Shown: positions 7,738 to 21,684 of the stretch, in pieces | Numbering within the stretch: position 1 is the stretch's first letter | Layout of the letters: each line of letters begins with the position of its first letter | NCBI GenBank assembly: GCA_938034905.1 | Contig: CALHLF010000079.1 | Span: forward strand, 1-37,415 | Length of the DNA stretch: 37,415 nt | Direction: 5' to 3' | Source: an uncultured bacterium | GTDB taxonomy: Bacteria > Dictyoglomota > Dictyoglomia > Dictyoglomales > Dictyoglomaceae | The notes under the pieces: generated by a model | Database searches by the model: none | What the model was told of the DNA's origin: nothing | What the model saw: the letters and a program-made list of their open reading frames with translations, nothing else | Made by a program: the position numbers and the translations under genes

Positions 7738-9723
7738 ATGGGAAAGGATAAAAAATTGGATGGGATTTTGGTTTTAGGGGAAGAGGAATATTTTATTTCT
7801 ATTTTAGAATGGTGGAAGGATCAGGGATATAAAGTAAAGATCTCTCCTGATTATAAAGGAGAGGAAGGATATAGTATTTTTTTAGTTTTAGGGAGAAAAG
7901 ATCTCCCTTGGGATAGAATAATAAATAATTTAAAGGATTTTAAAGCTAAAAAGATTCTTTTAAATCCATGGGGAGAAGAATATGATATTATTAATTCTTC
8001 CCTTTGGTCTGCAGTTATATCCTTTGTTCCTGTAGATAATAAAAGAACCTATAAAGTTGAAGTTCCCTATTATTCTATATTTGAGCTTTCAAAGAATACC
8101 CTTTGTGAAGAATTAAATTTACCTAAGGATAAAAATATAATTATTTTTTTAGGAGACTATGATTCTTCTTTAAAAGATATTCTTATTAATCTAAGAAGGG
8201 ACTCATCTATTTATAATTTAGGACTTATCTTTTCAGAAGAAGATAAGAAAAAACTCGAAAAGGATCTTGATAATCTTATTGATTTAAGAGTGGTAAACTC
8301 CTGGAAAGATGTTATGAAATATTTTCTCACCTCAAAACTTATAAGTTTTTATCAGAAAGAGAGTGGATTTTTAATATTTTCTCAAATTTTTAGTGGAGAC
8401 ACTTATACTTTAATGAAAAATGAAGATTTATTAACTAAAATTAAGTATCTTCTTGAAAATGAGAGGGAAAAAGAAGATATTTCAAAATATTATCAAGGAA
8501 TTTTATATAAACATTCTCCAGAGAGAATAGGAAGTCAATTCTTATACATTTTTAACGAGATTTTAAATCCTACCCCCTATCTTTCTTTACCAAGACTAAA
8601 AAGATATAGTGGGAATCCATTATTTAAAGCACGACCTGATGTGTATATAGAGATTAAAGGAAAGAAAATATATTGGGAGAGATTGGTATACAATGCAGGT
8701 GCCATTAGATTGGAAGGGAAAACATATGTTTTTTATAGAGCATTAGGAGAGGATGGTATCTCAAGAATAGGTCTTTGGTGGAGTAAGGATGGATATAAAG
8801 AAGAGAGAAGGCTTGAATATCCTATTTTTGGACCCGAAGAAGAATATGAGATACCAACACCAAAAAGATTAGAGGAAAGAAGAGAATGGCAATTAAAAAA
8901 CTTAGGAATGACAAGAGAGTTGGGAGGAACTGAAGATCCAAGGATATCTTTAATTAATGACTATCTTTATATGACCTATACTTCCTATGGAGATTTAGTT
9001 CAACTATCCTTAGCAAAGATAAAGGTAAAGGATTTTTTGAGAGGAGTAAGGGAATTTAAATCCTATGAAGAATGGAAATCAGTTTGGGATAGAAATGGTC
9101 CTATTTTTAGAGGTCTTGATGACAAAGATGCAGTATTATTTCCGGTATATGAAAGGGTAGAAGAAGATGTTGAGAAAAAAACTCTTTATGAAGGAAATTT
9201 TGTTAATCTTTTTCCCGAACTTTTAAATAGTAAAGTAGCTTTGATTCATAGAATTCCCCCTGATATGCAAATTCTTTTTACTGATGAGATTCTTTACAAA
9301 GGGGCTAAAGTAGGAAGAACCTTTCTTATGCCTAGACCAGGATATTGGGATAGTGAGAAGATTGGAGCAGGAGCCCCTCCTTTAAAGACAAAATTTGGCT
9401 GGCTTCATATCTATCATGGTGTGGGAAGATTTAAGGAAAAAAGGATATATGCTTTAGGAGTAGTGCTTACCTCCCTTGATGATCCTACAAAGATTATATA
9501 TCGTTCCAAGGATCCCATATTAGAACCTGAAGAGTATTATGAATTAGAAGGATGGGTTCCCAATGTAGTATTTTCCTGTGGAGTAGTTCCTAAATTTAAA
9601 GATTCCACAGAAATATTAGATGAAAATGATGAGATTATAGTTTATTATGGTGGAGCAGATGAGGTAATGGCATTGGCGGAAGGGAAGATTGGAGATTTAA
9701 TTCCAAGAGAGGTAAGAGATTAA
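7738..9723 (+). CDS. GH130-family glycoside phosphorylase with an N-terminal GT-B-like domain
   Basis: Residues about 285-655 are a five-bladed-propeller GH130 domain. 'GTEDPR' (397-402) is the family hallmark containing the catalytic Asp. 'YHG' near 559-561 and 'GAGAPPLKTKFGWL' are conserved in manno-oligosaccharide phosphorylases, which cleave beta-mannosides with phosphate to mannose-1-phosphate. The first 280 residues are not GH130. Their pattern (a Rossmann-like 'IIIFLGDYDSSL' near 134-145, and a C-terminal 'LLTKIKYLLENE...PERIGSQFLYIFNE') resembles the C-terminal half of GT4/GT-B glycosyltransferases, without a convincing active site. GH130 enzymes usually have 300-400 residues, so 661 is unusual. 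There is no signal peptide, so it is cytoplasmic, and 'aaggagagaggag' precedes the ATG. The phosphorylase family is sure; the substrate (mannan, beta-1,2-mannan or other) is open. Confidence 0.85.
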   Translation: MGKDKKLDGILVLGEEEYFISILEWWKDQGYKVKISPDYKGEEGYSIFLVLGRKDLPWDRIINNLKDFKAKKILLNPWGEEYDIINSSLWSAVISFVPVDNKRTYKVEVPYYSIFELSKNTLCEELNLPKDKNIIIFLGDYDSSLKDILINLRRDSSIYNLGLIFSEEDKKKLEKDLDNLIDLRVVNSWKDVMKYFLTSKLISFYQKESGFLIFSQIFSGDTYTLMKNEDLLTKIKYLLENEREKEDISKYYQGILYKHSPERIGSQFLYIFNEILNPTPYLSLPRLKRYSGNPLFKARPDVYIEIKGKKIYWERLVYNAGAIRLEGKTYVFYRALGEDGISRIGLWWSKDGYKEERRLEYPIFGPEEEYEIPTPKRLEERREWQLKNLGMTRELGGTEDPRISLINDYLYMTYTSYGDLVQLSLAKIKVKDFLRGVREFKSYEEWKSVWDRNGPIFRGLDDKDAVLFPVYERVEEDVEKKTLYEGNFVNLFPELLNSKVALIHRIPPDMQILFTDEILYKGAKVGRTFLMPRPGYWDSEKIGAGAPPLKTKFGWLHIYHGVGRFKEKRIYALGVVLTSLDDPTKIIYRSKDPILEPEEYYELEGWVPNVVFSCGVVPKFKDSTEILDENDEIIVYYGGADEVMALAEGKIGDLIPREVRD

Positions 9724-9737
9724 AAATTAAGGGAAGA

Positions 9738-10619
9738 TCACGGTTTTAGATCTCTCCAAGAGATTATCTTTATTCCCTCTTCCTTTATTACCCTTCTTAC
9801 CTCTTCATCTTTGAAAACTAAATACTCCCATACCCTCTTTTCCCAGGTGGGATTAATAGCCTTTATCTCATCACTTTCTATAGAAGGATGGATAATAATT
9901 TCTGATATTCCAGGTTTAAGCTTTCGTATTAAACCGATAATCATCCTTTTAAAAGAGAGATAATTAGGACAATCGGGAAGTTCATAAGGATATGGTATAA
10001 GATAATCAATCAATGGAATTCCCATTTCTCTTGCCATATCTAAGAATTTTATATGGAGCTCTATTAAATCTTGAGATAGTTGAGGAATCATCTCAGAAGG
10101 AAGTTTTTTTGGCAATCTGAAGGGAAGATTATATTCTTTACAAAATTGGAAAACTAAGGGAATAAAGGTTTTTCCATGAAATCCATATAAACTTCCCATA
10201 TGATTATCAAGATGGGTAGGTCTTACTCCCAATTTGAGGGCAAGATTAATTTGATTTTTAATTTCTTCTTCCACGTCTTCCCTTTTTGCATTTCTCTCAA
10301 ATTCTTCAGTGGTTTCAAAAAAATAACCCTCTCTATCTACTAAGGAATCTAAAAATTTATTCCTTGTTACAGGTCCCCATTTGTAATTTTTCCACTCACT
10401 GTTAAAGGTTAAATGAACTCCTACATCAAATTCTGGATGAATTTTACAAAATTCTCCAGCTTCTTTTGCCCAGGGACATGGAACCATAATTGTAGTAGAC
10501 GAGATAACTCCTTCCTCTAAAAGTCTAAAAATAGCAAGATTAACAGAGTGACACATTCCAAAATCATCAGCAGTAATAATTAAAAATCTTTCCTTTGACT
10601 CCTGAAGATTATCAGTCAT
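9738..10619 (-). CDS. ChbG/YdjC-family carbohydrate deacetylase
   Basis: Members of this family remove N-acetyl groups from chito- or other amino-sugar oligosaccharides using a divalent metal. The metal-site residues are visible: 'TADDFG' (D18, D19), H69 in 'VGVHLTF', and H136/H140 in 'THLDNHMG'. Its 293 residues are typical and there is no signal peptide. It has its own promoter (10646-10674) and ribosome site (GAGGAG before ATG 10619), and converges on the GH130 gene with a 14-base gap. The natural substrate is unknown. Neighbouring carbohydrate genes suggest an acetylated oligosaccharide, perhaps acetylated mannan, but that is a guess. Confidence 0.88.
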   Translation of the reverse strand: MTDNLQESKERFLIITADDFGMCHSVNLAIFRLLEEGVISSTTIMVPCPWAKEAGEFCKIHPEFDVGVHLTFNSEWKNYKWGPVTRNKFLDSLVDREGYFFETTEEFERNAKREDVEEEIKNQINLALKLGVRPTHLDNHMGSLYGFHGKTFIPLVFQFCKEYNLPFRLPKKLPSEMIPQLSQDLIELHIKFLDMAREMGIPLIDYLIPYPYELPDCPNYLSFKRMIIGLIRKLKPGISEIIIHPSIESDEIKAINPTWEKRVWEYLVFKDEEVRRVIKEEGIKIISWRDLKP

Positions 10620-10645
10620 ATTTTTCTCCTCATAATTTTTTATTT

Positions 10646-10674
10646 ATTTTAACTTTTTTACTAATAGAATTCAA
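10646..10674 (-). promoter_or_regulatory. Promoter of the ChbG/YdjC-type deacetylase gene
   Basis: On the minus strand TTGAAT (10674-10669), 17 bases, and TAAAAT (10651-10646). This places the transcript start about 20 bases before the ATG at 10619. Confidence 0.7.
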
Positions 10675-10706
10675 ATTTGTTTTCTCTATAAGTTATTAAT
10701 GTTATC

Positions 10707-12995
10707 TTAGTTCTCGTATAAATAAATATATGCTTTGTAGAATTTAAAGATTTCTTTATTTTTAAAATTATTATCCAGCCAATTTTTTACCTTTAGAGTT
10801 CGATCATTATGGTCACTTAATACTAACCAAAATCTTTTTGTATTTGACAATTCCTTCCTTAATTTTTCGTCACTAAAAAAGTCAGGATTTACGGGAATAT
10901 AGAAGAGCTTTCCTCTATTATAATATTCAAAGGGCCTATAATAATAAGATTCTGTTATCAAAACCTTATGGGAAGAATCAGAATTTTCGTGAATAAAGCT
11001 TACTATATCCCTCCAGGGACGGTTAAGGGTTTTCATGTGGGAATAATAGGATAAATCTAATATAGAATATAGACCAATTAAAAAAAGTATTAAGAGGATA
11101 ATTAGAGGGGGAAATTTGAGTTTTTTTATTCCCCGGGACAATAAAATTAAAAGACCCGGAACAAAGGCTGATAAATATCTACTACTATAAAAACTTTTTC
11201 CAAATAATGAAATTGCTATTAGAGAAAAAAAGGGAATAAAAAAGTACAATATATTTAATAAAAATCCCTTTTTTTCCTTATATGGGGGAAGTATTCCCAC
11301 AAAGGAAAGAATTAAAAAGAAAAGTAGTAAAAAATTGCTTAGGTTCCATTTATCAATAATAATCCTTGTAAATCCTAAGAAAATTTGATAGAGGGAGACA
11401 AGAATTGTAAAAATAGAAAGTTTTTGAGCTCCTTGATATACTTCTGGTGTATTTCTTGTAAAGATAACATAAATCCAGGGAGAAAATATTATAAGATTTA
11501 TGAGCTGAGAAATGATCCAATTTTTTAAATTTTTAAAATTCTTTCTTTGAGTGATGAAGATAAAGATGTTTTCTGCTAATATTAATAAACTTGAAAAGAA
11601 GTGAGTATAGAGGAGAAGAGAATTTACCATCAAAATTTTTATAAGATTTTTTCTATTAAATTCCTTGTTTATCAGATCATAAATAAAATTTAGAGAAAGA
11701 AGGGCTAAAAAGGTAAATAGAGGATACATTCGAGCTTCTTGAGAAAAATATATTAAGAAGGGAGAGAGGGAAAAAAGAAGAGAGGATATTAAGGCAGTGG
11801 TTTTATCATAGATCTTATTTACAAATTTATATAATAATAGAATACTAAGAGTACCAAAAATAAAAGATAAGGATCTTAAGGTAAACTCAGAATCTCCCAA
11901 TAACTTTATCCAAAAATACATAATTATAAAATAAAAAGGGGGATGGATTCCCGTTTGGGATCTATTTAGTATAATTCCAGTTATTCCCATCTGGGATACT
12001 TGAGCAGTGATTGCTTCATCAAGCCAAATACTTCTTTCTGAAATTTTATATATCCTTAACAGAGCACCTAATAAAGTTACAATAAAAATAATAATTTTAC
12101 TATCCTTAAGATTCTTATTAAGGATAGCTACCCCAATGATGGCAGGAAGAGCAGTATTTATTAAGAATAATAAAAAAGCACTATTAAAGGCTGTAGCAGG
12201 AGAAAGAGAGAATTTTCCAAGAAGAAATATTGCAGTTCCTTCTCTAATCCCTAATCCTCCAATAGTTATGGGAAAAAGATTTACCAACATAACTATTGGA
12301 TAACAGATAAATGTAGGAAAAAAAGAAAATTTCTCAAAAGAATTAACGAGGAGATACACCTCTATTAGCACTAAAAAATATGATAAGAAGGAAAGGATGA
12401 AGTTTAACAAAAGAGTCCTTCTTTTTAAATTTAGAATTCCTTCTATAAGTCTTGGAAATTTTTTAAAGGGATATATTTGGGAGAATTTTTCTAAAATCCT
12501 TTGATTAAAGATAAGAATTATAGAAAGAATTATTAGAATTCCTAATATAATTGATATATGTATTCCAAAAAAGAAGGAGAATCCCCAGAAGGCAAGGATT
12601 AGCACCACCAAAAGGTCAAAAATCTTATCTAAAATTACCAAACTTAATCCTTCAACTCTTTTTTCTTTGTTAATATTTCCAACTCTTGCGACTTCTCCTA
12701 ATCTTCCTGGAGTTATAAGCCCTATGGACATGCCAATAAAATAACTATCAATAGATTTTGAAAGGGAATTTTCTCTAATTAAATCCTTTAAAAGAAAATG
12801 CCATTTTAAAATTTTAAAGAAGGTAAATAAAAATCCAGAAAGGACTGCTAATATTAAAAATTTTATATTTAGAGAAACTAAATTTAGGAAAAGTTTCTGT
12901 CCTGGTAACTTTTTAAATATAAAATAAAATACGAAAAAAGTTATTAATAATTTTATGACATTAATAATAAAGTTTTTCTTTTCCCTCAGTATCAT
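10707..12995 (-). CDS. Fusion membrane protein: YbhN/AglD-type flippase-like domain plus GT39/ArnT-like glycosyltransferase
   Basis: This 762-residue polytopic protein has two parts. Residues about 10-295 match the LPG-synthase-TM/UPF0104 family, with 'TPGRLGE' (95-101), 'ILDKIFD' (121-127) and 'GGLGIRE' (246-252). Residues about 300-760 look like a GT39/ArnT (PMT-like) membrane glycosyltransferase. 'WLDEAIT' has an Asp-Glu pair at 326-327, the expected catalytic pair in the first external loop; it is followed by 'HPPFYF' (351-356), 'RSLSFIFG' and 'QEARMYPL'. GT39 enzymes use polyprenyl-phosphate sugars, and the GT2 gene two genes upstream should make one. ATG at 12995 overlaps the preceding gene by 35 bases but has AAGGAG just before it. 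Each half is well known alone; the single-chain fusion suggests coupled donor flipping and transfer, which is inference. Confidence 0.82.
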   Translation of the reverse strand: MILREKKNFIINVIKLLITFFVFYFIFKKLPGQKLFLNLVSLNIKFLILAVLSGFLFTFFKILKWHFLLKDLIRENSLSKSIDSYFIGMSIGLITPGRLGEVARVGNINKEKRVEGLSLVILDKIFDLLVVLILAFWGFSFFFGIHISIILGILIILSIILIFNQRILEKFSQIYPFKKFPRLIEGILNLKRRTLLLNFILSFLSYFLVLIEVYLLVNSFEKFSFFPTFICYPIVMLVNLFPITIGGLGIREGTAIFLLGKFSLSPATAFNSAFLLFLINTALPAIIGVAILNKNLKDSKIIIFIVTLLGALLRIYKISERSIWLDEAITAQVSQMGITGIILNRSQTGIHPPFYFIIMYFWIKLLGDSEFTLRSLSFIFGTLSILLLYKFVNKIYDKTTALISSLLFSLSPFLIYFSQEARMYPLFTFLALLSLNFIYDLINKEFNRKNLIKILMVNSLLLYTHFFSSLLILAENIFIFITQRKNFKNLKNWIISQLINLIIFSPWIYVIFTRNTPEVYQGAQKLSIFTILVSLYQIFLGFTRIIIDKWNLSNFLLLFFLILSFVGILPPYKEKKGFLLNILYFFIPFFSLIAISLFGKSFYSSRYLSAFVPGLLILLSRGIKKLKFPPLIILLILFLIGLYSILDLSYYSHMKTLNRPWRDIVSFIHENSDSSHKVLITESYYYRPFEYYNRGKLFYIPVNPDFFSDEKLRKELSNTKRFWLVLSDHNDRTLKVKNWLDNNFKNKEIFKFYKAYIYLYEN

Positions 12996-14568
12996 ATTCT
13001 CTCCTTATTCTTACTAAATTTTTATTAACCTTCATTATATGAAAATAATTATTTAAATCTTGAATCTGAAAATATCTTGAAGAAGGTATAAAGATATATG
13101 GATTTTCCCTTCCAATTATTACTTTATCTATTTTAAAAGGAGAATTTATCTCATCTTCAATTATCACCCTATCCTTTTTAATAATAATCTTCCTTTTAAA
13201 GTTAACAGGGCCTCCTTTTTTATAGGATATTAGCATGCTTCTCAAAATTTTTTTGACAAGGAAACTGATAAATTTATTTCTTCCAAGGGTAACTTGAAAT
13301 AGATTTAACATTAAATTTTTTGTTGGAGTCATATACTTAAAAGGAATCTTAAGAAGAGATCCTTCAACATAATATCCATCGTTAAATGATATTTTGAGCT
13401 TAGGATTTAAAAAGGAAGCGTATCTTCTTTCCCCAATATAAATAATAGGTCCACTATCCCTCAGGGATTTTAAAGTATTTTTAAAATCAATTCTTATTGT
13501 TCCCTCCTTCTTTAAATTCCCTATTATATAAAAATTTCTATTACTTTCTATAAATATTCCACTATCTGGGAAAATCTTTGAGAATTCCTCTTCATAAATG
13601 GGGTTTATCAATTCTCCTTTATAAAAATTTTCATGAGCTTGAATATATGTATATCCTATGTATGCAAGGTATCTATCATCTAAATTAGAAGGGCTTATAC
13701 TTTTTCCCTCAAGAATTGCCCTTCTTAAAGAAAAAAGGATTCTTTTTGCTGAGTCATTCCATCTTGCAGAAAATTCTATTCCCGAAGGAATAATGTATTT
13801 CGTATTTCTTGATCCATACTCCCCACCAAAGGAAAGATCAGGATGGGAAAAGAAAACCAAAAAGCTTAAAGCTTTATCTATCATATTTTTTGTCTCTTGA
13901 TCTTTTGTTTTTTCATAATATTTGCAAAGGTAATCTATAGTCAGGGAAAGATATCCTATATCTGGACCTTGATATTCTGGAAACCAACCTTCTTCTTTTT
14001 GAATTTTCTTTAGTTTTATCAACTTTGAGAAGGCTCCTCTCTTGTATTTCTCTTCAGAAGTTAAGAGATAGATATTATAAAGGGCAATAATACTTCCTGC
14101 CACTTGATTGCATGCAGTAAAGTCATCATTGCCAAGGAGAAAATCTCCTGCTTTTTTAAGATGCTTTATCACTTTATTTAAATTTTCTATTTTTCCCTTT
14201 AATAAAAGAATAGATTCAGAGATGGCATAAGAGGAAAAAGAGGTTGTAACAAAACTATGCTCATTGGGATACCATTCATCAAAGGATCCATTGCTCTTTT
14301 GGATTTTCCCCCAAAAATCTATTCCTGCATTTATAAAGGAAAGAATTGTATCATTTTTAAAATATATATTTTCAGGTTCATTTAAATTATAAAGAAGGGT
14401 TAGAGTTAAGACAGCTTCTTGAAATCTTGCACAGGGAAAAGCTACAATATTATAATGCCAATAATTTCTGTCAAAACAACCAAAGGTAGGACTTGATGGG
14501 TTTTTGTCTAAAAGTCCCAATAATCTTGGAATTTCGGAGAGAATTTTTCTTAGATAGACATTACTCAA
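12961..14568 (-). CDS. Unrecognised protein; helical-barrel (alpha/alpha toroid) N-half and beta-rich C-half, envelope-glycan cluster
   Basis: I do not recognise a named family for this 535-residue protein. It opens with 'CFDRNYWHY' (31-39). Up to about 330 it shows repeated helical pairs with aromatic motifs ('GIDFWGKIQKSNGSFDEWYP', 'EEGWFPEYQGPDIGYLS', 'LSFGGEYGSRNTKYI') in the style of alpha/alpha-toroid glycan lyases or hydrolases. The last 190 residues are beta-rich, as in heparinase II/III-type C-terminal sandwiches. There is no signal peptide. The start is TTG at 14568, within an eight-base overlap with the upstream GT2 gene and with GAGG a few bases earlier. It lies between two glycosyltransferase genes with overlaps on both sides, so it probably acts in the same pathway. 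A carbohydrate-active role is inference from fold impression only. Confidence 0.7.
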   Translation of the reverse strand: MSNVYLRKILSEIPRLLGLLDKNPSSPTFGCFDRNYWHYNIVAFPCARFQEAVLTLTLLYNLNEPENIYFKNDTILSFINAGIDFWGKIQKSNGSFDEWYPNEHSFVTTSFSSYAISESILLLKGKIENLNKVIKHLKKAGDFLLGNDDFTACNQVAGSIIALYNIYLLTSEEKYKRGAFSKLIKLKKIQKEEGWFPEYQGPDIGYLSLTIDYLCKYYEKTKDQETKNMIDKALSFLVFFSHPDLSFGGEYGSRNTKYIIPSGIEFSARWNDSAKRILFSLRRAILEGKSISPSNLDDRYLAYIGYTYIQAHENFYKGELINPIYEEEFSKIFPDSGIFIESNRNFYIIGNLKKEGTIRIDFKNTLKSLRDSGPIIYIGERRYASFLNPKLKISFNDGYYVEGSLLKIPFKYMTPTKNLMLNLFQVTLGRNKFISFLVKKILRSMLISYKKGGPVNFKRKIIIKKDRVIIEDEINSPFKIDKVIIGRENPYIFIPSSRYFQIQDLNNYFHIMKVNKNLVRIRREYDTEGKEKLYY

Positions 14569-15502
14569 ATCCTACTTCCTCAGCAATTAAATATTCCCTT
14601 TTTCTTTCGTGGGTTAGATTACTTAGCATCTCGCCTATGAGTCCTAAGGATAAAAATTGGACTCCTATAATCATAAGGAGAACTCCCAAGGTTAATAAGG
14701 GTCTTGTCCCAATCAATGCTCCTGTCAAAAGTTTATATAAAACTAAAGATAGATTTATAATAAATCCAGTAATTAAAAATAATATTCCAATACCTCCAAA
14801 AAGATGCATAGGTCTTTTTAAGAATCTTGTTAAGAAAATGACTGTTATTAAATCTAAAAATCCCTTAATTATTCTTTCCCAACCATATTTTGATCTTCCA
14901 TATTTTCTCTCATGATGCTCCACTGGAATTTCTGTAATTTTAAATCCCTTGCTATTTGCTAAGGCAGGAATATATCTATACAATTCTCCATAAATCTCTA
15001 AATTTTCGATCACCTCCCTTCTATAAGCTTTATATCCACAATTGAAATCATGAATTTTAACTCCAGTAAGGATACTTGCTAATTTATTAAAAATTTTAGA
15101 GGGTAATTTTTTGGTGATGGGATCTTTTCTTTCCTTCTTCCAACCTGATACTAAGTCGTATCCTTCTTTTATTTTTTCAATAAATTTGGGAATTTCCTTT
15201 GGATCGTCCTGTAAGTCTGCATCCATAGTGATAATAATATCTCCCTTTGCTCTATTAAACCCTGATAATAAGGCCGATGCTTTTCCAAAATTTCTTCTAA
15301 ACCTAATTAATTTAACTCTTTTATCCCTTTCATGGATTTCTTTTAAGATTTCATAGGAGTTATCAGAACTTCCATCATCAATAAAAATTATCTCAAAGGA
15401 AAGATTAGAGGGAACATTTCTTAAAATTTTTTCATATAATTCCTGTAATGTTCCCTCTTCATCCTTTAGAGGTATAACAAAAGATAGATCAATTTTTCCC
15501 AT
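14561..15502 (-). CDS. GT2-family polyprenyl-phosphate glycosyltransferase (DPM1/ArnC/GtrB-like)
   Basis: It transfers a sugar from a nucleotide donor to a membrane polyprenyl phosphate. The GT-A domain begins at 'LSFVIPLKDEEGTL', with 'FIDDGSSDNS' (about 41-50) and the metal-binding 'DADLQDD' (about 94-100). The 'GYKAYRREV' and 'YGRSKYGWERI' motifs are characteristic of the DPM1-like branch. Two C-terminal membrane helices (about 230-255 and 262-290) match ArnC/GtrB types. The start is ATG at 15502; a TTG one codon earlier is possible. No ribosome site precedes it, but TATAAT lies eight bases upstream, so the mRNA may be leaderless. It is the first gene of the three-gene glycosylation cluster. 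Confidence 0.9.
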   Translation of the reverse strand: MGKIDLSFVIPLKDEEGTLQELYEKILRNVPSNLSFEIIFIDDGSSDNSYEILKEIHERDKRVKLIRFRRNFGKASALLSGFNRAKGDIIITMDADLQDDPKEIPKFIEKIKEGYDLVSGWKKERKDPITKKLPSKIFNKLASILTGVKIHDFNCGYKAYRREVIENLEIYGELYRYIPALANSKGFKITEIPVEHHERKYGRSKYGWERIIKGFLDLITVIFLTRFLKRPMHLFGGIGILFLITGFIINLSLVLYKLLTGALIGTRPLLTLGVLLMIIGVQFLSLGLIGEMLSNLTHERKREYLIAEEVGFE

Positions 15503-15510
15503 CAAGATAT

Positions 15511-15538
15511 ATTATAATAGAATTTACATTTATAACAA
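15511..15538 (-). promoter_or_regulatory. Promoter for a leaderless transcript of the GT2 gene
   Basis: On the minus strand TTGTTA (15538-15533), a 16-base spacer and TATAAT (15516-15511). The -10 ends eight bases before the ATG of the GT2 gene, so transcription should start at or beside the start codon. The -35 lies in the 3' end of the SDR gene. Confidence 0.6.
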
Positions 15539-16288
15539 AGCTCCTCCATCTATACTAATTATGCTTCCTGTCATATATGCTGCCTCATCACAAGCAGCAA
15601 AAAGTATTGCAAAGGCGATCTCTTCTTCCCTTCCTAATCTTCCTAAGGGTCTTCTTTCTGCCATTTGTTTTAAAACCTCATCAGGATTTGGTAATTTCTT
15701 TAATCTCTCTGCAAGCCCCTGGGTATATGTAGTTCCAGGACAAACACAATTTGCCCTTATATTTTCCTTTGCGTAATCTATAGCTATGGATTTTGTAAGG
15801 GAGATGAGAGCCCCCTTTGATACACTATATGCAAATCTATCAGGAATTCCCTTTAAACCTGCCTCTGAAGATACATTTACTATTACTCCTCCTCCTTGTT
15901 TTTTCATTTGTTGAACTGCATATTTTGATAGTAAAAAGGGACCTTTTACATTTATTGCCATAGTTTTTTCAAAATCCTCTTCTGAGGTATTCTCAACCTT
16001 TCCGCCCAAGACAATGCCTGCATTATTAACAAGAATATCAAGTCTTCCATAAGTATTAACAATCTCCTCTATTATTCTCTCTGCCTCAGAAGAGACAGAT
16101 ATATCTCCTAAGATAAAAGTAGCCTCTCCTCCTTGACTTTTTATTATCTCTACGGTTTCTTTTCCTCTTTCTTCAGATATATCATTTACCCCAACCTTTG
16201 CTCCCCTTTCTGCAAACATAATTGCAGTTTTTCTTCCAATTCCAGATCCTGCTCCAGTAATTAAAACTACTTTATTTTTAAAATTCAT
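15530..16288 (-). CDS. SDR-family NAD(P)-dependent dehydrogenase in a sugar-acid operon
   Basis: This classical short-chain dehydrogenase has 252 residues. The cofactor site 'GAGSGIG' (12-18) is followed by 'NNAG' (88-91), catalytic Ser near 140, Tyr154 and Lys158 in 'YSVSKGA', and C-terminal 'GSIISIDGG'. 'VGVNDIS' after the second strand places Asp35 where an NAD-preferring acidic residue is expected. It is the last gene after rpiR, dehydrogenase, aldolase and dctPQM, so it probably oxidises or reduces a sugar acid or its keto form; the exact substrate cannot be told. ATG at 16288 has GGGAGG before it. Confidence 0.9.
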   Translation of the reverse strand: MNFKNKVVLITGAGSGIGRKTAIMFAERGAKVGVNDISEERGKETVEIIKSQGGEATFILGDISVSSEAERIIEEIVNTYGRLDILVNNAGIVLGGKVENTSEEDFEKTMAINVKGPFLLSKYAVQQMKKQGGGVIVNVSSEAGLKGIPDRFAYSVSKGALISLTKSIAIDYAKENIRANCVCPGTTYTQGLAERLKKLPNPDEVLKQMAERRPLGRLGREEEIAFAILFAACDEAAYMTGSIISIDGGALL

Positions 16289-16306
16289 ATTTATTTCCTC
16301 CCTTCT

Positions 16307-17593
16307 TTATCTTCCAAAGATTAAATTAGGAATAAATAATACTAAATCTGGGAAAAAGATAATAGTTGTCATTGCTAAAACTACTGCTATTAAAAAAGGC
16401 CAAGATTCTCTTATAAATTCTCCAATAGATACATCTAAAATAGAACATACCGCATACATTGCAGCACCTACTGGAGGAGTGAAGTTTCCTATAGCACAAG
16501 TAATAACGAAAATTAAGCCAAAATGTACAGGATCAATTCCTAATTTTAGAGCGATGGGGAAAAATATTGATGTAAGCATAAGAATAAGAACTGTTGCATC
16601 AATAAAGCACCCAGCAACTAATAAAAGACTAATTAATATAAGAAGGAAAATATAAGGATTATTTGTAATGCCAAGAATAAAATTAGAAATAATTTCTGGG
16701 ATTCTTTCCCATACTATCCCATAGGAAAATATAGAAGAAAAGGCTATAAGGGACATAGTGGCACCAATATCAATAGTTGAACCTCTTAATGCTTCTAAAA
16801 AATTTTTTAGATTTAAATCTCCATATATTAAAGTTCCTATAATAATAGCATAAACTACACAAAGGGCTCCAACTTCTGATGGAGTAAAATATCCTCCCCT
16901 TAATCCTACCAGCAATATTACAGGGAAAAGAATTGCCCAGATACCCCCATAGGATGCATGTATTAACTCTTTAAAGGACGCTCTCTTTTCCCTTTGAGGG
17001 GGAAATTTTCTTATCCTTGCAGTTACTGCAACAGTAATCATAAGATAGGTCATTATTAAAAGTCCTGGTACTATTCCTCCTGCAAAAAGTCTTCCAATAG
17101 ATACTTGAGCAATAGTTCCAAATAGCACAAGACCAATACTGGGAGGAATTGTTGGAACCTCTAAGGAAGAAAAAACTAAAGATCCTGCTGCATACCCCTT
17201 AGGGAGTCCTCTTTTGATCATCTCCGGTCCTAACATACGTGCTTCCATTGCTGCATCAGCGATAGCAGACCCAGAGACACCTCCCATAAGAGCAGAAAGG
17301 ACACAAGTAACCTGTGCTAATCCTCCCCTTAAATGTCCCACAAGTACTGTGGAAAGATCAATTAATCTCTTTGTAATTCCCGAATGATTCATCATATTTC
17401 CCGCAAGAATAAATAATGGAATTGCTAAAAGGGCAAAATTTAATGTTTGAGATAAGGGCAATTGGACTGGTGTGGTGAGGGGAATCTCTAAGGGATGCTG
17501 GAGGAAGAATAAAAGTCCTGATATGGCAATGGCAAAAACAACAGGCATCCCTAAGATCATAAAGACCAAGAACAATATTACAACTATTAACAT
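16307..17593 (-). CDS. dctM: TRAP transporter large permease (DctM)
   Basis: This is the 12-helix membrane subunit that carries the solute with sodium or proton symport. Its 428 residues are typical. The family patterns are present: 'PLFILAGNMMNHSGIT', 'GGVSGSAIADA', 'PTIPPSIGLVLFG', 'FTPSEVGALCVVYA' and 'NFTPPVGAAMYAVCSI'. ATG at 17593 follows the dctQ stop by two bases; the ribosome site AGGAGG is inside the end of dctQ, so the two are coupled. The substrate is likely a sugar acid, from the KDPG-aldolase and dehydrogenase genes in the operon. Confidence 0.95.
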   Translation of the reverse strand: MLIVVILFLVFMILGMPVVFAIAISGLLFFLQHPLEIPLTTPVQLPLSQTLNFALLAIPLFILAGNMMNHSGITKRLIDLSTVLVGHLRGGLAQVTCVLSALMGGVSGSAIADAAMEARMLGPEMIKRGLPKGYAAGSLVFSSLEVPTIPPSIGLVLFGTIAQVSIGRLFAGGIVPGLLIMTYLMITVAVTARIRKFPPQREKRASFKELIHASYGGIWAILFPVILLVGLRGGYFTPSEVGALCVVYAIIIGTLIYGDLNLKNFLEALRGSTIDIGATMSLIAFSSIFSYGIVWERIPEIISNFILGITNNPYIFLLILISLLLVAGCFIDATVLILMLTSIFFPIALKLGIDPVHFGLIFVITCAIGNFTPPVGAAMYAVCSILDVSIGEFIRESWPFLIAVVLAMTTIIFFPDLVLFIPNLIFGR

Positions 17594-17595
17594 GT

Positions 17596-18072
17596 CTATT
17601 TCCTCCTTCTTAAGGATTTTATCTCATCTATTATCTTATAAATAGTAGTAAAGAGGAGAAGAAAAGAACCAAAGGGGACACTAATAGTAACCCAAGAATA
17701 ACTAAATCCATAAATACCTTCATAGGCTCTAAATCTCATATCATAAGCAGCTTCTATCCCAAATCTGATAAGAAAAATCAAAAATCCGGTGATAATTATA
17801 TAATTTATTATTCTTATAATTGCTTTTACCTTCTCTGGAAGTTTATTTACAAAAAAATCAATAGTCATCAACTTATCTCTTCTAAAGGCTATATCCGTTG
17901 CTAAGAATGCAGTCCATGCAAAAAGAAAACTTGCCAATGGGTTTGCCCATCTTATTGGGTTTTTTAAGGTTCTTGAAATTCCTGCAGTAAAAACTAAAAT
18001 TACAATAGAGACTAAAAAGATTTGGGCTAAGAAAATCTCAACTTTACCAAGAAAATCATAAATCTTTCTCAT
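17596..18072 (-). CDS. dctQ: TRAP transporter small permease (DctQ)
   Basis: This four-helix small membrane subunit, 158 residues, has typical features: 'GISRTLKNPIRWANPLASFLFAWTAFLATDIAFRRDKLMTIDFFV' spans helices 1-2 and the conserved R-x-x-x-x-x-W and H/K-I-D-like motifs. It sits between the hairpin at 18091-18134 and dctM. GAGGTGA precedes the ATG at 18072. Confidence 0.93.
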   Translation of the reverse strand: MRKIYDFLGKVEIFLAQIFLVSIVILVFTAGISRTLKNPIRWANPLASFLFAWTAFLATDIAFRRDKLMTIDFFVNKLPEKVKAIIRIINYIIITGFLIFLIRFGIEAAYDMRFRAYEGIYGFSYSWVTISVPFGSFLLLFTTIYKIIDEIKSLRRRK

Positions 18073-18090
18073 ACTCTTTCACCTCATTCT

Positions 18091-18134
18091 TAAAAAAATA
18101 AAGGGATCGGACCTTATGAAAAGATCCGATCCCT
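18091..18134 (-). terminator. Intrinsic terminator-like hairpin between dctP and dctQ
   Basis: AGGGATCGGA (18102-18111) pairs perfectly with TCCGATCCCT (18125-18134). A CTT/AAG inner stem and a five-base loop lie inside. On the leftward strand it is followed by a run with seven consecutive T (TTATTTTTTT). It comes 12 bases after the dctP stop and before dctQ in the same orientation, so it probably gives partial termination, keeping binding protein in excess over permease. Confidence 0.85.
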
Positions 18135-18145
18135 AAGGATAAAAT

Positions 18146-19147
18146 TTACTTCTTTCTAAGCTCCCTCCAAACCTTGTCCTTTGCCTCTTTAATCTTTAAA
18201 ACTTCATAAGCTTTTTCTCCTGCCTTCTTAAATGCTGCTATATCTATATCCTTCTTTGGTATTATAATCATTCCCTTCTCTTGAATCATCTTTTTAACTT
18301 CCTCTTCTTTTGCAAATACAACCTTTGTGGTTTCTATTCCTGCTTTATCGCATTCTTCTTCAAGGATCTTTTGGTAAGTTAAAGGTAAACTTCTGAACCA
18401 TTTTGCACTAACCACTTCAAAGTTTATTAATAAAATATGGCTGGTCTCATTTACATATTTCAGTACTTCATATAATCTCATCCCTGGTATATTGTTATAT
18501 ACAAGCTCTACTCCATCTACAGCTTTTTGCTGAAGGGCAGGATATATATCACCAAAGGCTAAAGCTACAGGAGTAGCTCCAAGGGCACGGATAGATTCTT
18601 GCCAAACAGGAGTTCCAGGAGTTCTAATGCGAAGTCCCTTCAAATCCTCGGGAGTTTTTATTGGTTTGTTGGTCATGAAGTGCCTAAATCCTTGTACCCA
18701 AACAAAGGAGAGGACTTTAAATCCGTATTTTTCTTCTAAGGTTTTTAGCCAGTTGTGGACAGTGGGCATCTTCTTTAGTTTTTGTACTTCTTCGGGAGAA
18801 TCTACAAAATAAGGGCAGTTCATTATTCCAATATCGGGAACATACATTGCCATTCTTGCAGAATCAGTGTTTTGGCCTATATTAGCTCCTTTTCTGATTT
18901 GTTCCAATATATCTTCCTCTACGCCCAGCTGTGCACTGTGATATACCTCAATCTTAAGTCCACCGTTTGTTCTTTCCTCTACTGCCTTTGCCCACTTTAG
19001 GAATCCTTCATGATAAGGATCTAAAGGGGATAGGACATGATTGAATTTTAATACAAATTTTGGAGTTTGAGCAGATAATGGAATAGCTAATAATATTAAC
19101 ATTAAAATGGAAACAATAGTCAAAGAGATTCTCCTAAGTTTTCCCAT
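18146..19147 (-). CDS. dctP: TRAP transporter solute-binding protein (DctP)
   Basis: This is the secreted receptor of the TRAP importer, 333 residues. The signal peptide covers about the first 25 residues, ending 'LAIPLSAQT'. The DctP family pattern is clear: 'HVLSPLDPYHEGFLKWAKAVEERTNG', 'GVEEDILEQIRKG', 'PEDLKGLRIRTPGTPVWQESIRALGATPVAL' with the ligand-carboxylate Arg in 'RIRTPG', and 'DGVELVYNN'. GGAGGG precedes the ATG. The ligand is an organic or sugar acid, inferred from the conserved Arg and the operon. Confidence 0.95.
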   Translation of the reverse strand: MGKLRRISLTIVSILMLILLAIPLSAQTPKFVLKFNHVLSPLDPYHEGFLKWAKAVEERTNGGLKIEVYHSAQLGVEEDILEQIRKGANIGQNTDSARMAMYVPDIGIMNCPYFVDSPEEVQKLKKMPTVHNWLKTLEEKYGFKVLSFVWVQGFRHFMTNKPIKTPEDLKGLRIRTPGTPVWQESIRALGATPVALAFGDIYPALQQKAVDGVELVYNNIPGMRLYEVLKYVNETSHILLINFEVVSAKWFRSLPLTYQKILEEECDKAGIETTKVVFAKEEEVKKMIQEKGMIIIPKKDIDIAAFKKAGEKAYEVLKIKEAKDKVWRELRKK

Positions 19148-19205
19148 AATTTTCCCTCCATTTTAAAAAATTCTTCATTGTTAAGCCCAAAATCTATTTA
19201 AATTT

Positions 19206-19853
19206 TTACTTTTCTCTTGCCTTTCTCACCTCCTCTATAAATTTTTGGGCTCTTTCCGATAATAGATCCCATTTTTTCTCAGATAACAATTTTTTATCCA
19301 CTAAGTTTCCTCCTACTCCTACAAAGCATGCTCCTGCTTTAATGAATTCCCCTACATTTTCAAGACTAACCCCGCCTGTGGGAGAAAGCCTAATATGGGG
19401 CATAGGTCCATGAATATCCTTTATAAATTGAGGTCCTAAGGAAGATGCAGGAAAAATCTTTATTACATCTCCTCCCTCCTCCCATGCAGTGAGAATTTCT
19501 GTAGGGGTATAAGCTCCAGGGATGGCAACTTTATCATATCTATGACAAATTTTTATAATTTCAGGTTTTAAAACAGGAGATACAATAAATTCTGCACCTG
19601 CTAATATAGCAAGTCTTGCAGTTTCTGGATCAAGTACAGTCCCAACTCCTAAAACTATATCCTTTCCCATATTTTTTGATATTTCTGGAAGCATATTGAG
19701 AGCTCCAGGTGTGGTCATTGTAAGTTCAATCCCAATTACTCCACCCTCCTTTAATGATTTTGCAATGTTTAACAATTCCTCAGAATTATCTACTCTTATT
19801 ACTGCTACAACTCCACAGTCAATAATTTTCTCTAAGATTTTTTCCCTTCCCAT
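19206..19853 (-). CDS. eda: KDPG/KHG aldolase (2-keto-3-deoxy-6-phosphogluconate aldolase)
   Basis: It cleaves 2-keto-3-deoxy-6-phosphogluconate to pyruvate and glyceraldehyde-3-phosphate, the last step of Entner-Doudoroff and uronate breakdown. Its 215 residues fit the class I enzyme. Visible catalytic residues are Arg20 ('VIRVDN'), Glu43 in 'IELTMTTPG' and the Schiff-base Lys132 in 'VIKIFPAS'. 'LSPTGGV' provides the phosphate site. It begins 10 bases after the dehydrogenase stop, within the RpiR operon. No KDG kinase is in the window, so either it lies elsewhere or the enzyme acts on an unphosphorylated keto-deoxy acid. Confidence 0.93.
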   Translation of the reverse strand: MGREKILEKIIDCGVVAVIRVDNSEELLNIAKSLKEGGVIGIELTMTTPGALNMLPEISKNMGKDIVLGVGTVLDPETARLAILAGAEFIVSPVLKPEIIKICHRYDKVAIPGAYTPTEILTAWEEGGDVIKIFPASSLGPQFIKDIHGPMPHIRLSPTGGVSLENVGEFIKAGACFVGVGGNLVDKKLLSEKKWDLLSERAQKFIEEVRKAREK

Positions 19854-19863
19854 TTTTACCTCC

Positions 19864-20817
19864 TTAAGATACTATAAATTTAGGTTCTTCTCCCTTTAAT
19901 ACTAAGATAAGATTTTCTACAGAGACTTCTGCCATTTTCTCAATGGCTTCTTCAGTATGAGCTCCAGTATGAGAAGTGATAACAACATTTTCTAAATCAA
20001 ATAAGGGAGAATTTTTAGGGGGTTCCTCTTCAAGGACATCTAATCCTGCCCCAAAGATTCTCTTTTCCTTTAATGCTTTATATAATGCGATCTCATCTAT
20101 AATTCCACCCCTTGAAGTATTAATGATAATTGCAGAAGGCTTCATCATATTAATTTCTCTCTCAGAAATTAAATGATAGGTATCCTTAGTTAAAGGAATA
20201 TGAAGAGTTATAATGTCAGAATTCTTTAAAAGTTCTTCCAAGGAAACATATAGAACTCCTTCCCTTTCTGCCCAAGAATAATCAGGAGAAAGATCATAAC
20301 AAGTTATTCTTAAGTCAAAGCCCTTTAAGAGTTTTATAACCCTTTTTCCAATATTTCCTGTCCCAATAACCCCAAGGGTTTTCCCATATAATTCGTACCC
20401 TATAAATCTTTCCCATAATCCCTCTCGAGATTTTCTATCGGATAAAGAAATTCCCCTCAAAACAGAAAAAATCAATCCTATGGTCAATTCTGCTACCCCA
20501 TTAGTATTTGCAAAGGGAGTATTTGTAACTATAATTCCCAACTTTTTTGCGGCTTCAATATCTATATTGTCAACTCCTACCCCATATTTTGAGATAACCT
20601 TTAATCTTTCTGCATTCTCTAAGACCCTTGAGGTTAAAGGGTCTATTCCTACAATGATTCCATCAACATCTCTAATAAGCTTTATAATTTCTTCCTCCTT
20701 TAATACCCTCCCATATGGATTAAGAATTACCTCATATCCTTCCCTTTCTAATCTTTCTATATATTTTTTTCCTCTTGTTTCGAAGGTTCTTGGAGTTATT
20801 AATACTTTAATAGACAC
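19864..20817 (-). CDS. D-isomer-specific 2-hydroxyacid dehydrogenase (phosphoglycerate-dehydrogenase-like)
   Basis: This NAD-dependent enzyme of 317 residues interconverts a 2-hydroxy acid and its 2-keto acid. It has 'YGVGVDNID', the Rossmann motif 'GVIGTGNIG', the catalytic Arg in 'NTSRGG', a Glu in 'LEEEPP' and the catalytic His in 'SHTGAHT'. It lacks the C-terminal ACT domain of biosynthetic SerA and sits in a sugar-acid operon, so a catabolic role on a sugar or hydroxy acid is more likely than serine synthesis. The start is GTG at 20817, with AAAGGAG ten bases upstream and 18 bases after the rpiR stop. Confidence 0.9.
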   Translation of the reverse strand: MSIKVLITPRTFETRGKKYIERLEREGYEVILNPYGRVLKEEEIIKLIRDVDGIIVGIDPLTSRVLENAERLKVISKYGVGVDNIDIEAAKKLGIIVTNTPFANTNGVAELTIGLIFSVLRGISLSDRKSREGLWERFIGYELYGKTLGVIGTGNIGKRVIKLLKGFDLRITCYDLSPDYSWAEREGVLYVSLEELLKNSDIITLHIPLTKDTYHLISEREINMMKPSAIIINTSRGGIIDEIALYKALKEKRIFGAGLDVLEEEPPKNSPLFDLENVVITSHTGAHTEEAIEKMAEVSVENLILVLKGEEPKFIVS

Positions 20818-20835
20818 GTGCTAATATCTCCTTTC

Positions 20836-21684
20836 TTAAAATCTCTTAGGAACTATAGCTTCTCTGGTAAGTTTTAAATTCTCAATGGTTTTATCTAATC
20901 TTCTTAATGCAACTCCTATATAGAGGGCATCAATAATGGATAGTTGAGCTATACGAGCAGAGGTACTTTCAGTTCTATAAAAGGTTTCTTCTGAGGATAC
21001 AGAAAGCTTTATATCCAATACTTTGTCCATGGGGGTTTTGGCATAATGGGTTATACCGATGGTAGTTGCTCCTCTTTTCTTTGCTAAGGTGAGGGCATCA
21101 ATTATGTCCTTACTACTTCCTGAAGCAGATATTCCTATCACCACGTCATTAGGTTCCAATATACTTGCAGACATAGCCTGCATATGGCTATCTATATAGG
21201 CAACTGTTGGAATTCCTGTTTTCATAAATTTATGCTGGGCATCTAAAGCTACAGGTCCAGAACCACCTACTCCATATATTTGAAGTTGTCTTGCAGAAAG
21301 AATAGCAGATATTGCTCTTTCCAATTCCTTTATGGAAAGAATATTAAGAGTAGCCTCCATAGCCCTTATATTTGCAGAGAATACCTTTTTTAAGATAGTT
21401 TCTAAATTGTCTCCTTCTTGAACTGCCTGATGTACTGTTTTTACTGGTTGAATTTTTTCCATGGCAAGAGTTATTTTTAATTCTTGAAATCCCCTAAATC
21501 CCATTTTTTTACACATTCTTACTACAGTTGCCTCACTTACTCCTACTCTTTCTGCAAACTCTGTGATGGGAAGGTGGAGGACTTCCTGCCAATGGGTCAA
21601 AATATAATTTGCGACTTTCTCTTCAGAGGCTCGAAGATTTACCTTTTTCTCTTTTATGCTTTCTAATACATTAGATTCCTTCAT
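20836..21684 (-). CDS. RpiR-family transcriptional regulator (HTH plus SIS domain)
   Basis: This 282-residue regulator is the first gene of the operon it probably controls. The N-terminal helix-turn-helix ('EFAERVGVSEATVVRMCKKMGFRGFQELK', about 40-68) is followed by a SIS phosphosugar-binding domain ('IYGVGGSGPVALDAQHKFMKTG' and 'ISASGSSKDIIDAL'). In this family sugar phosphates such as KDPG are ligands (HexR), which fits the aldolase gene downstream. The ATG at 21684 has no ribosome site; a stop six codons upstream rules out extension. One copy of a 15-base near-palindrome (21688-21702) ends four bases before the start codon, so the protein may also block its own translation or transcription. 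Confidence 0.92.
   Translation of the reverse strand: MKESNVLESIKEKKVNLRASEEKVANYILTHWQEVLHLPITEFAERVGVSEATVVRMCKKMGFRGFQELKITLAMEKIQPVKTVHQAVQEGDNLETILKKVFSANIRAMEATLNILSIKELERAISAILSARQLQIYGVGGSGPVALDAQHKFMKTGIPTVAYIDSHMQAMSASILEPNDVVIGISASGSSKDIIDALTLAKKRGATTIGITHYAKTPMDKVLDIKLSVSSEETFYRTESTSARIAQLSIIDALYIGVALRRLDKTIENLKLTREAIVPKRF

Follow-up and report, generated by a model that had tools for sequence, protein, structure and literature searches.

Which step could a protein of no recognised family perform when its gene is wedged between those of a sugar-carrier synthase and a flippase? We addressed this question for a 37,415-nucleotide stretch of DNA (hereafter, the window; the forward strand of contig CALHLF010000079.1, assembly GCA_938034905.1) from an uncultured bacterium of the Dictyoglomaceae. 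Its minus strand encodes a GT2 glycosyltransferase, a middle protein that we name TOR, and a fusion of a flippase-like half to a GT-C glycosyltransferase half. We found that this triplet is real and conserved and that it probably forms a functional unit. On balance we lean towards a Gtr/Arn-like system for extracytoplasmic glycosylation, supplemented by a modifying enzyme, TOR, that would alter the carrier-linked sugar before flipping.

The genes, all on the minus strand, lie at 14561–15505 (GT2, 314 amino acids), 12961–14568 (TOR, 535 amino acids) and 10707–12995 (fusion, 762 amino acids). An initial annotation had described three overlapping genes at 10707–15505; the coordinates and both overlaps (8 bases between GT2 and TOR at 14561–14568, 35 bases between TOR and the fusion at 12961–12995) proved exact. 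The same triplet is conserved elsewhere, intact, in the same order and with adjoining or overlapping genes, in three genomes of the same family (G004, G005 and G006) and one of another family (G052). Identity to the window in G005, G004 and G006 is 86%, 73% and 70% for GT2, 66%, 57% and 55% for TOR, and 65%, 48% and 44% for the fusion. A tree of TOR proteins places that of the window, those of its family and that of G052 in one strongly supported clade. The one-contig genome G003 retains remains of all three genes (L075:7674-12434), each with several stops or frame breaks, and apparently is losing the whole pathway. Neither TOR nor the fusion has a match in the congeners G001 and G002, where a close copy of the GT2 is missing too. 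Hence, the three genes have been gained, lost and decayed together.

The GT2 protein matches PF00535 (E=3e-38), and its closest NCBIfam model is ArnC (221 bits, under the ArnC cut-off). The closest PDB entry is likewise ArnC (E=6.5e-57), followed by GtrB sll0501 (E=1e-38) and the dolichol-phosphate mannose synthase PfDPMS (E=2e-25). Two C-terminal transmembrane helices are predicted, beginning at residues 238 and 270, so that the protein has the make-up of the polyprenyl-phosphate GT2 with a C-terminal transmembrane pair found in Gtr-type systems. We class it as an ArnC/GtrB/DPM1-type polyprenyl-phosphate glycosyltransferase, predicted to attach a sugar to the carrier on the inner-leaflet side. 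All other GT2 proteins of the same genome score 35 bits or less against it.

At the other end of the unit, the fusion carries a PF03706 (LPG_synthase_TM) domain at residues 13–288 (12132–12959; E=1e-31) followed by a GT39-like PMT_2 match at residues 351–509 (11469–11945; E=1e-15), which is the sole PMT_2 match in the genome. Foldseek matched its AlphaFold2 model (pLDDT 88.3) to MprF (E 7e-5 to 6e-4) and to a group made up of undecaprenyl-phosphate-bound ArnT (E=3e-8), PglB, ALG12 and Pmt4. We read this group as matches of the predicted GT-C half, which runs from about residue 300 to the C-terminus, and the MprF matches as those of the flippase half, in agreement with Pfam. The flippase half is of MprF/YbhN/AglD type and has a conserved P-x-T-x-(G/A)GxGxRE stretch. 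The Asp326-Glu327 pair singled out by the initial annotation (12015–12020, near the start of the GT-C half) is kept as W-x-D-E in each of the five aligned full-length fusions and also in GT39 relatives that stand alone, and it lies where GT-C enzymes carry their acidic loop-1 motif. Together with the ArnT, PglB and PMT matches, this gives the unit a GT-C transferase with the acidic motif, as in Gtr-type systems; as judged by sequence and fold it also contains a flippase gene, of PF03706 type with an MprF-like fold and not of the GtrA, SMR or MATE type. The gene fusion links the two predicted functions.

The initial annotation had proposed that the GT2 loads a sugar that the fusion flips and uses outside. 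The ArnC-like GT2, the MprF-like flippase and the ArnT/PMT-like GT-C half support this proposal, and neither of the two findings that the annotation had named as refuting it (a triplet not kept together elsewhere, an Asp326-Glu327 pair not kept in homologues) was made. A probable modifying step by TOR was missing from it. It had also stated that no described system has this exact set. This holds for the set, and a search of open-access papers returned none on it, but the scheme was already known from the Gtr, Arn, mycobacterial decaprenyl-phosphate arabinose (DPA) and Citrobacter pentofuranose systems (PMC11127046, PMC12826051). GtrABC-type systems, including that for Citrobacter pentofuranose, likewise combine a polyprenyl-phosphate sugar synthase, a flippase and a GT-C transferase, and some have, in addition, a cytoplasmic enzyme by which the carrier-linked sugar is changed (PMC11127046). 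The triplet differs from them in its PF03706-type flippase, fused to the GT-C enzyme, and in an auxiliary enzyme with a polysaccharide-lyase fold instead of an SDR or DprE epimerase.

In the Arn pathway, which places aminoarabinose (Ara4N) on lipid A, ArnC-ArnD-ArnEF-ArnT alter the carrier-linked sugar before or around export. The triplet resembles this pathway in that its GT2 is closest to ArnC and its GT-C half to ArnT, and in that an enzyme is encoded between synthase and flippase. However, the unit has no ArnD (a NodB-type deformylase), in whose slot TOR stands, and no ArnEF (SMR-type), PF03706 being present instead. TOR would hold the place of ArnD in the Ara4N pathway and of DprE1/E2 in the arabinan pathway. 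The ArnC, ArnD, ArnEF and ArnT genes are listed in PMC12826051; for the Citrobacter O2 epimerase and the mycobacterial DprE1/E2 route, alteration of the carrier-linked sugar before or around export is described in PMC11127046. A further published case in which a sugar linked to a carrier or lipid is modified in the cytoplasm, beside a flippase, is gpgSDF of Pseudomonas aeruginosa (PMC12713373), one operon with a cytoplasmic glycosyltransferase, a cytoplasmic modifying enzyme and a COG0392 flippase; it differs in using a GT4 on phosphatidylglycerol, in having a deacetylase in place of TOR, and in having no GT-C enzyme. AglD and MprF, like the fusion, tie a PF03706 flippase-like domain to an enzyme of lipid-linked synthesis, whereas in the triplet it is the GT-C end of the pathway to which the flippase is joined. 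In Haloferax AglD a GT2 is joined to the PF03706-type domain. The aminoacyl-tRNA-dependent synthase domain of MprF was not found in the fusion, whose C-terminal half is GT-C. Since the gene order synthase, soluble enzyme, flippase, GT-C matches known pathways, we place TOR in the modifying slot. Three-component extracytoplasmic glycosylation is already known; the new element is TOR, a widespread unnamed family.

How widespread it is was seen in two surveys. A pattern scan returned 39 TOR loci in bacteria (Dictyoglomota, Armatimonadota, Rokubacteria, one Kaiserbacteria genome, Bdellovibrionota, Alphaproteobacteria, Verrucomicrobiota, Cyanobacteria, Thermodesulfobacteriota and Acidobacteriota) and three archaeal lineages (Woesearchaeota, Borrarchaeum and Methanophagales). 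A profile built from 42 members (alignment A1) gave strong matches (E<1e-60) in 28/386 genomes, the window's own included, which is ~7% of the sampled bacterial genomes. TOR also occurs on a plasmid record (Phyllobacterium); in phage records none was found. In Pfam and NCBIfam the window protein exceeds no family cut-off, with no NCBIfam fit beyond E=0.003 and weak Pfam matches; the best Hepar_II_III_C match among the 42 members reaches E=0.05, not over the cut-off, and neither TOR nor its profile had a significant hit among the sequences of the PDB. We rejected membership in Pec_lyase, as that match is below the cut-off and spans one toroid hairpin only. N-terminal extensions of TOR in L027 and L036 were not counted as fusions: they overlap a GT2 frame and seem to be open frames extended too far. 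The initial annotation's "unrecognised toroid-like protein" is a toroid protein of no recognised family; what it had not given is membership in a large conserved family and a role, probably a sugar-modifying step.

To characterise the surroundings of TOR, neighbour-family profiles were run over all its loci, and same-strand genes within 1.5 kb were counted. In the unbiased sample, a polyprenyl-type GT2 gene is near TOR in 14/27 loci, always upstream, and a PF03706 gene in 11/27, always downstream; most of both touch or overlap TOR. The pattern-scan set gave 24/38 and 20/38, respectively. GT2 genes are common, and adjacency might be accidental or reflect mere crowding of glycan genes. We consider this highly improbable, and it is already contradicted by a control of 30 Hepar_II_III protein loci with equal flanks from genomes sampled the same way: GT2 occurs at 14/28 TOR loci versus 0/30 control loci (Fisher test, P-value = 4e-6) and PF03706 at 11/28 versus 0/30 (P-value = 9e-5). 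The order, GT2 upstream and flippase downstream, is also fixed in nearly all loci, and the genes are lost and decay as a unit. In most other lineages a stand-alone flippase gene follows TOR directly, whereas Dictyoglomaceae and G052 have the flippase fused to the GT-C protein. PMT_2 or other multi-transmembrane proteins are found near many TOR loci, with PMT_2 recognised in 11/32 of such proteins, the window fusion included.

Some lineages have further neighbours. Some Bdellovibrionota loci have a UDP-glucose-6-dehydrogenase (UGDH)-like gene and an AsnB-type amidotransferase gene beside GT2-TOR, which would suit a uronic acid or uronamide. Two dehydrogenases of the UGDH Pfam family are encoded elsewhere in the window's genome. 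Separately, an FrhB/FdhB-type iron-sulfur flavoprotein gene lies directly upstream of TOR in L020, L040, L041, L044, L046, L047 and L048, mostly cyanobacteria plus one proteobacterium, one acidobacterium and one Methanophagales archaeon. A nitroreductase-like flavoprotein gene has the same position in L016, L017 and L018 (a Rokubacterium, a Kaiserbacterium and a woesearchaeon).

What chemistry could TOR perform? Its AlphaFold2 model (pLDDT 93.1) consists of an alpha/alpha toroid that reaches about residue 313, followed by a beta-sandwich at 329–535, the fold combination of polysaccharide lyases. The best solved Foldseek matches are uronate lyases: PL33, PL35 GAGase II, PL8 xanthan and hyaluronate lyases, PL12 and PL15 (E 5e-8 to 1e-5 for PL33, PL35, PL8 and PL12). 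TM-scores are moderate, ~0.42–0.57, and hence the kinship is one of fold, not of subfamily. Profile alignment of TOR with Hepar_II_III proteins (hhalign) gave a probability of 97% (E=1.3e-10). Dermatan sulfate epimerase is grouped with this superfamily of lyase-fold enzymes. Invariant residues among the 42 members include E103, N154, E193, W195, E198, Y199, D203, Y206, R254, D298 and R459. N154 (codon at 14107–14109), invariant in 42/42, is placed by hhalign on the GNH motif and aligns with the Asn that neutralises the uronate carboxylate in PL12 and PL35. In these lyases the catalytic Tyr follows 54 residues on (PMC12088678, Table 4); in TOR the invariant Y206 lies 52 residues after N154, and Y199 is invariant as well. 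TOR thus shares with Hepar_II_III, PL8, PL12, PL33 and PL35 lyases a toroid, an antiparallel beta-sandwich and an invariant Asn at the neutraliser position. It differs from them in having other invariant acids, an extra cationic hairpin, no catalytic His and no signal peptide, and is not recognised by PF07940. TOR has the lyase fold and part of the lyase site, but since the catalytic His is not conserved in the sandwich, we do not file it as a polysaccharide lyase.

The hairpin may explain how a soluble protein meets a membrane-bound substrate. Two helices (415–426 and 432–446; 13231–13326 for residues 415–446) are inserted in the sandwich of the model. In each of the 42 members the insert is both cationic and hydrophobic, with K+R 8–14 and D+E 0–5 over a stretch of 47–53 residues, which suggests contact with the membrane surface. 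TOR itself has no predicted transmembrane segment or signal peptide, and the toroid begins at the very start of the chain; a cytoplasmic location is therefore probable.

From the gene order, families, folds, conservation, co-occurrence and invariant residues computed here, we infer the catalytic and transport steps of the pathway, its substrate and its acceptor as follows. At the inner leaflet, GT2 would take a sugar from a nucleotide donor and pass it to polyprenyl phosphate. Soluble TOR, held at the membrane by the cationic hairpin, would then alter the carrier-linked sugar in its toroid pocket; judging from the fold and some lineage-specific neighbours, the likeliest chemistry would be at C5 of a hexuronic acid, by epimerisation or elimination. 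Flipping of the modified carrier-linked sugar would fall to the PF03706 half of the fusion, and the GT-C half would transfer it to an outside acceptor, which might be a lipid (lipid A or another), a protein or a polymer. The logic of this pathway is well supported by computation. The uronate assignment draws on the fold, on N154 and on the UGDH-like and amidotransferase genes that some lineages have beside TOR. It is the weakest link, since there is no catalytic His and no UGDH gene adjoins the window triplet. A dolichol-phosphate glucuronic acid is made by a DPM-like GT2 in Haloarcula (PMC9943897).

Several observations weigh against a modifying enzyme of this kind. Neither GT2 nor flippase is found within 1.5 kb in 10/27 loci of the unbiased sample, the GT2 neighbours of TOR are not all of one subfamily, and UGDH is not adjacent to TOR in Dictyoglomaceae or in the unbiased sample. 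Flippase activity of this PF03706 subfamily is a prediction. The lyase triad is incomplete, with no sandwich column holding His in more than about one third of the 42 members, and the Tyr column is ambiguous by ~3 residues, the profile alignment setting it at D203. Finally, the acid-rich pocket would suit a hydrolase too. Such an enzyme, working by an acid-acid mechanism, might trim or remove a sugar or glycan on the carrier in quality control or recycling of stalled polyprenyl-phosphate glycan. Five acids are invariant (E103, E193, E198, D203 and D298) with no lyase His beside them, on its own the toroid is similar, if at weaker E-values, to GH76, GH88 and GH9 enzymes, and freeing stalled intermediates would pay because sequestration of undecaprenyl phosphate is harmful (PMC12826051). 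However, the whole-chain fold matches, sandwich included, are lyases; the lyase-type Asn is invariant; and the tight overlap of synthase, TOR and flippase genes suggests a regular pathway step. Hydrolase chemistry is possible; we rate the trimming role as rather unlikely.

It is similarly doubtful that TOR acts as a lyase or C5-epimerase at the polymer level, on a longer lipid-linked oligosaccharide or polymer to which GT2 and flippase supply a side branch. Known enzymes of the TOR fold do act on polymers (PMC12088678), and some TOR loci are part of larger glycan clusters with GT4, AsnB or UGDH genes. In Dictyoglomaceae, however, only GT2, TOR and the fusion are linked, and no polymerase or other glycosyltransferase was recognised adjacent to them. 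Modification of the carrier-linked sugar is the role that we prefer. A bolder form of it, which we put forward tentatively, is that TOR represents a new family of membrane-attached enzymes of bacteria and archaea which perform C5-epimerisation or elimination with a lyase fold on a polyprenyl-phosphate-bound monosaccharide, giving an unrecognised class of lipid-linked donors exported and used by PF03706 flippases and GT-C enzymes.

As for the acceptor, the initial annotation had listed a lipid, the S-layer or another protein. Lipid A stays a candidate among these since LpxC is encoded: in the window genome (G000) it was matched at E=1.7e-80, lipid A synthesis being judged from LpxC as the sole lpx gene tested. 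The Dictyoglomota system might accordingly be an Arn-like lipid A modification with the GT-C half acting on lipid A, a proposal compatible with sugar modification by TOR and one to which we give limited credence. ArnC and ArnT are the closest solved structures, and LpxC is encoded in G000 and in 9/9 related or TOR-bearing genomes tested. However, it is also present in two congeners without the triplet and is therefore non-discriminating, making lipid A possible but not indicated. TOR loci occur, moreover, in archaea and in one Kaiserbacteria genome, and neither group would be expected to produce lipid A; given the archaeal members, lipid A cannot be the general acceptor.

Polyprenyl-phosphate sugar pathways decorate lipopolysaccharide, teichoic acids, arabinan and proteins. 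If our assignment is true, TOR, between synthase and flippase, adds a new chemical step to the polyprenyl-phosphate sugar scheme and points to sugars not yet seen on bacterial or archaeal surfaces, and PF03706 proteins gain a defined cargo. The fusion places the hard-to-assay flippase step and the transferase in one polypeptide, where they can be tested together.

We also looked at signals and genes around the triplet. A possible promoter, TTGTTA-16-TATAAT, lies directly before the GT2 gene (15511–15538, minus strand), its TATAAT ending at 15511; it is a weak candidate by consensus match, 42 promoter-like sites being counted versus 34 expected. No Shine-Dalgarno sequence was seen at the GT2 start, and translation may begin at ATG 15502 instead of TTG 15505. 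Downstream of the fusion gene, after a gap of 87 bases, lies a YdjC-like carbohydrate deacetylase gene (9738–10619, minus strand; PF04794, E=3e-60), a possible fourth member of the unit. We rejected it as a core member because the flanking genes of the triplet vary among relatives: no YdjC-like gene was found adjoining the triplet there, and in L076 and L078 the neighbours lie on the opposite strand. The fusion of G052 carries a NodB-type (polysaccharide-deacetylase) domain at its C-terminus (L079:6391-9240), so that two unrelated deacetylases occupy the same position, YdjC-like downstream of the window fusion and NodB-type fused to it in G052.

Directly upstream of the triplet, the minus strand at 15530–21684 encodes an RpiR-type regulator, a 2-hydroxyacid dehydrogenase, a KDPG/KHG aldolase, a DctP-DctQ-DctM TRAP transporter and an SDR, which looks like an operon for sugar-acid uptake and breakdown. 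Since the genes upstream of the triplet differ in relatives, the SDR-TRAP-KDPG aldolase genes were not placed in its pathway. On the plus strand, 7738–9723 encodes a 661-residue protein with a GH130 (beta-1,2-mannobiose phosphorylase-like) domain only in its C-terminal part (residues ~391–654); its N-terminal 390 residues matched no Pfam family. The GC content at 10501–13500 is ~27%, versus ~33–36% in most of the window, and may reflect membrane-protein codons or foreign origin.

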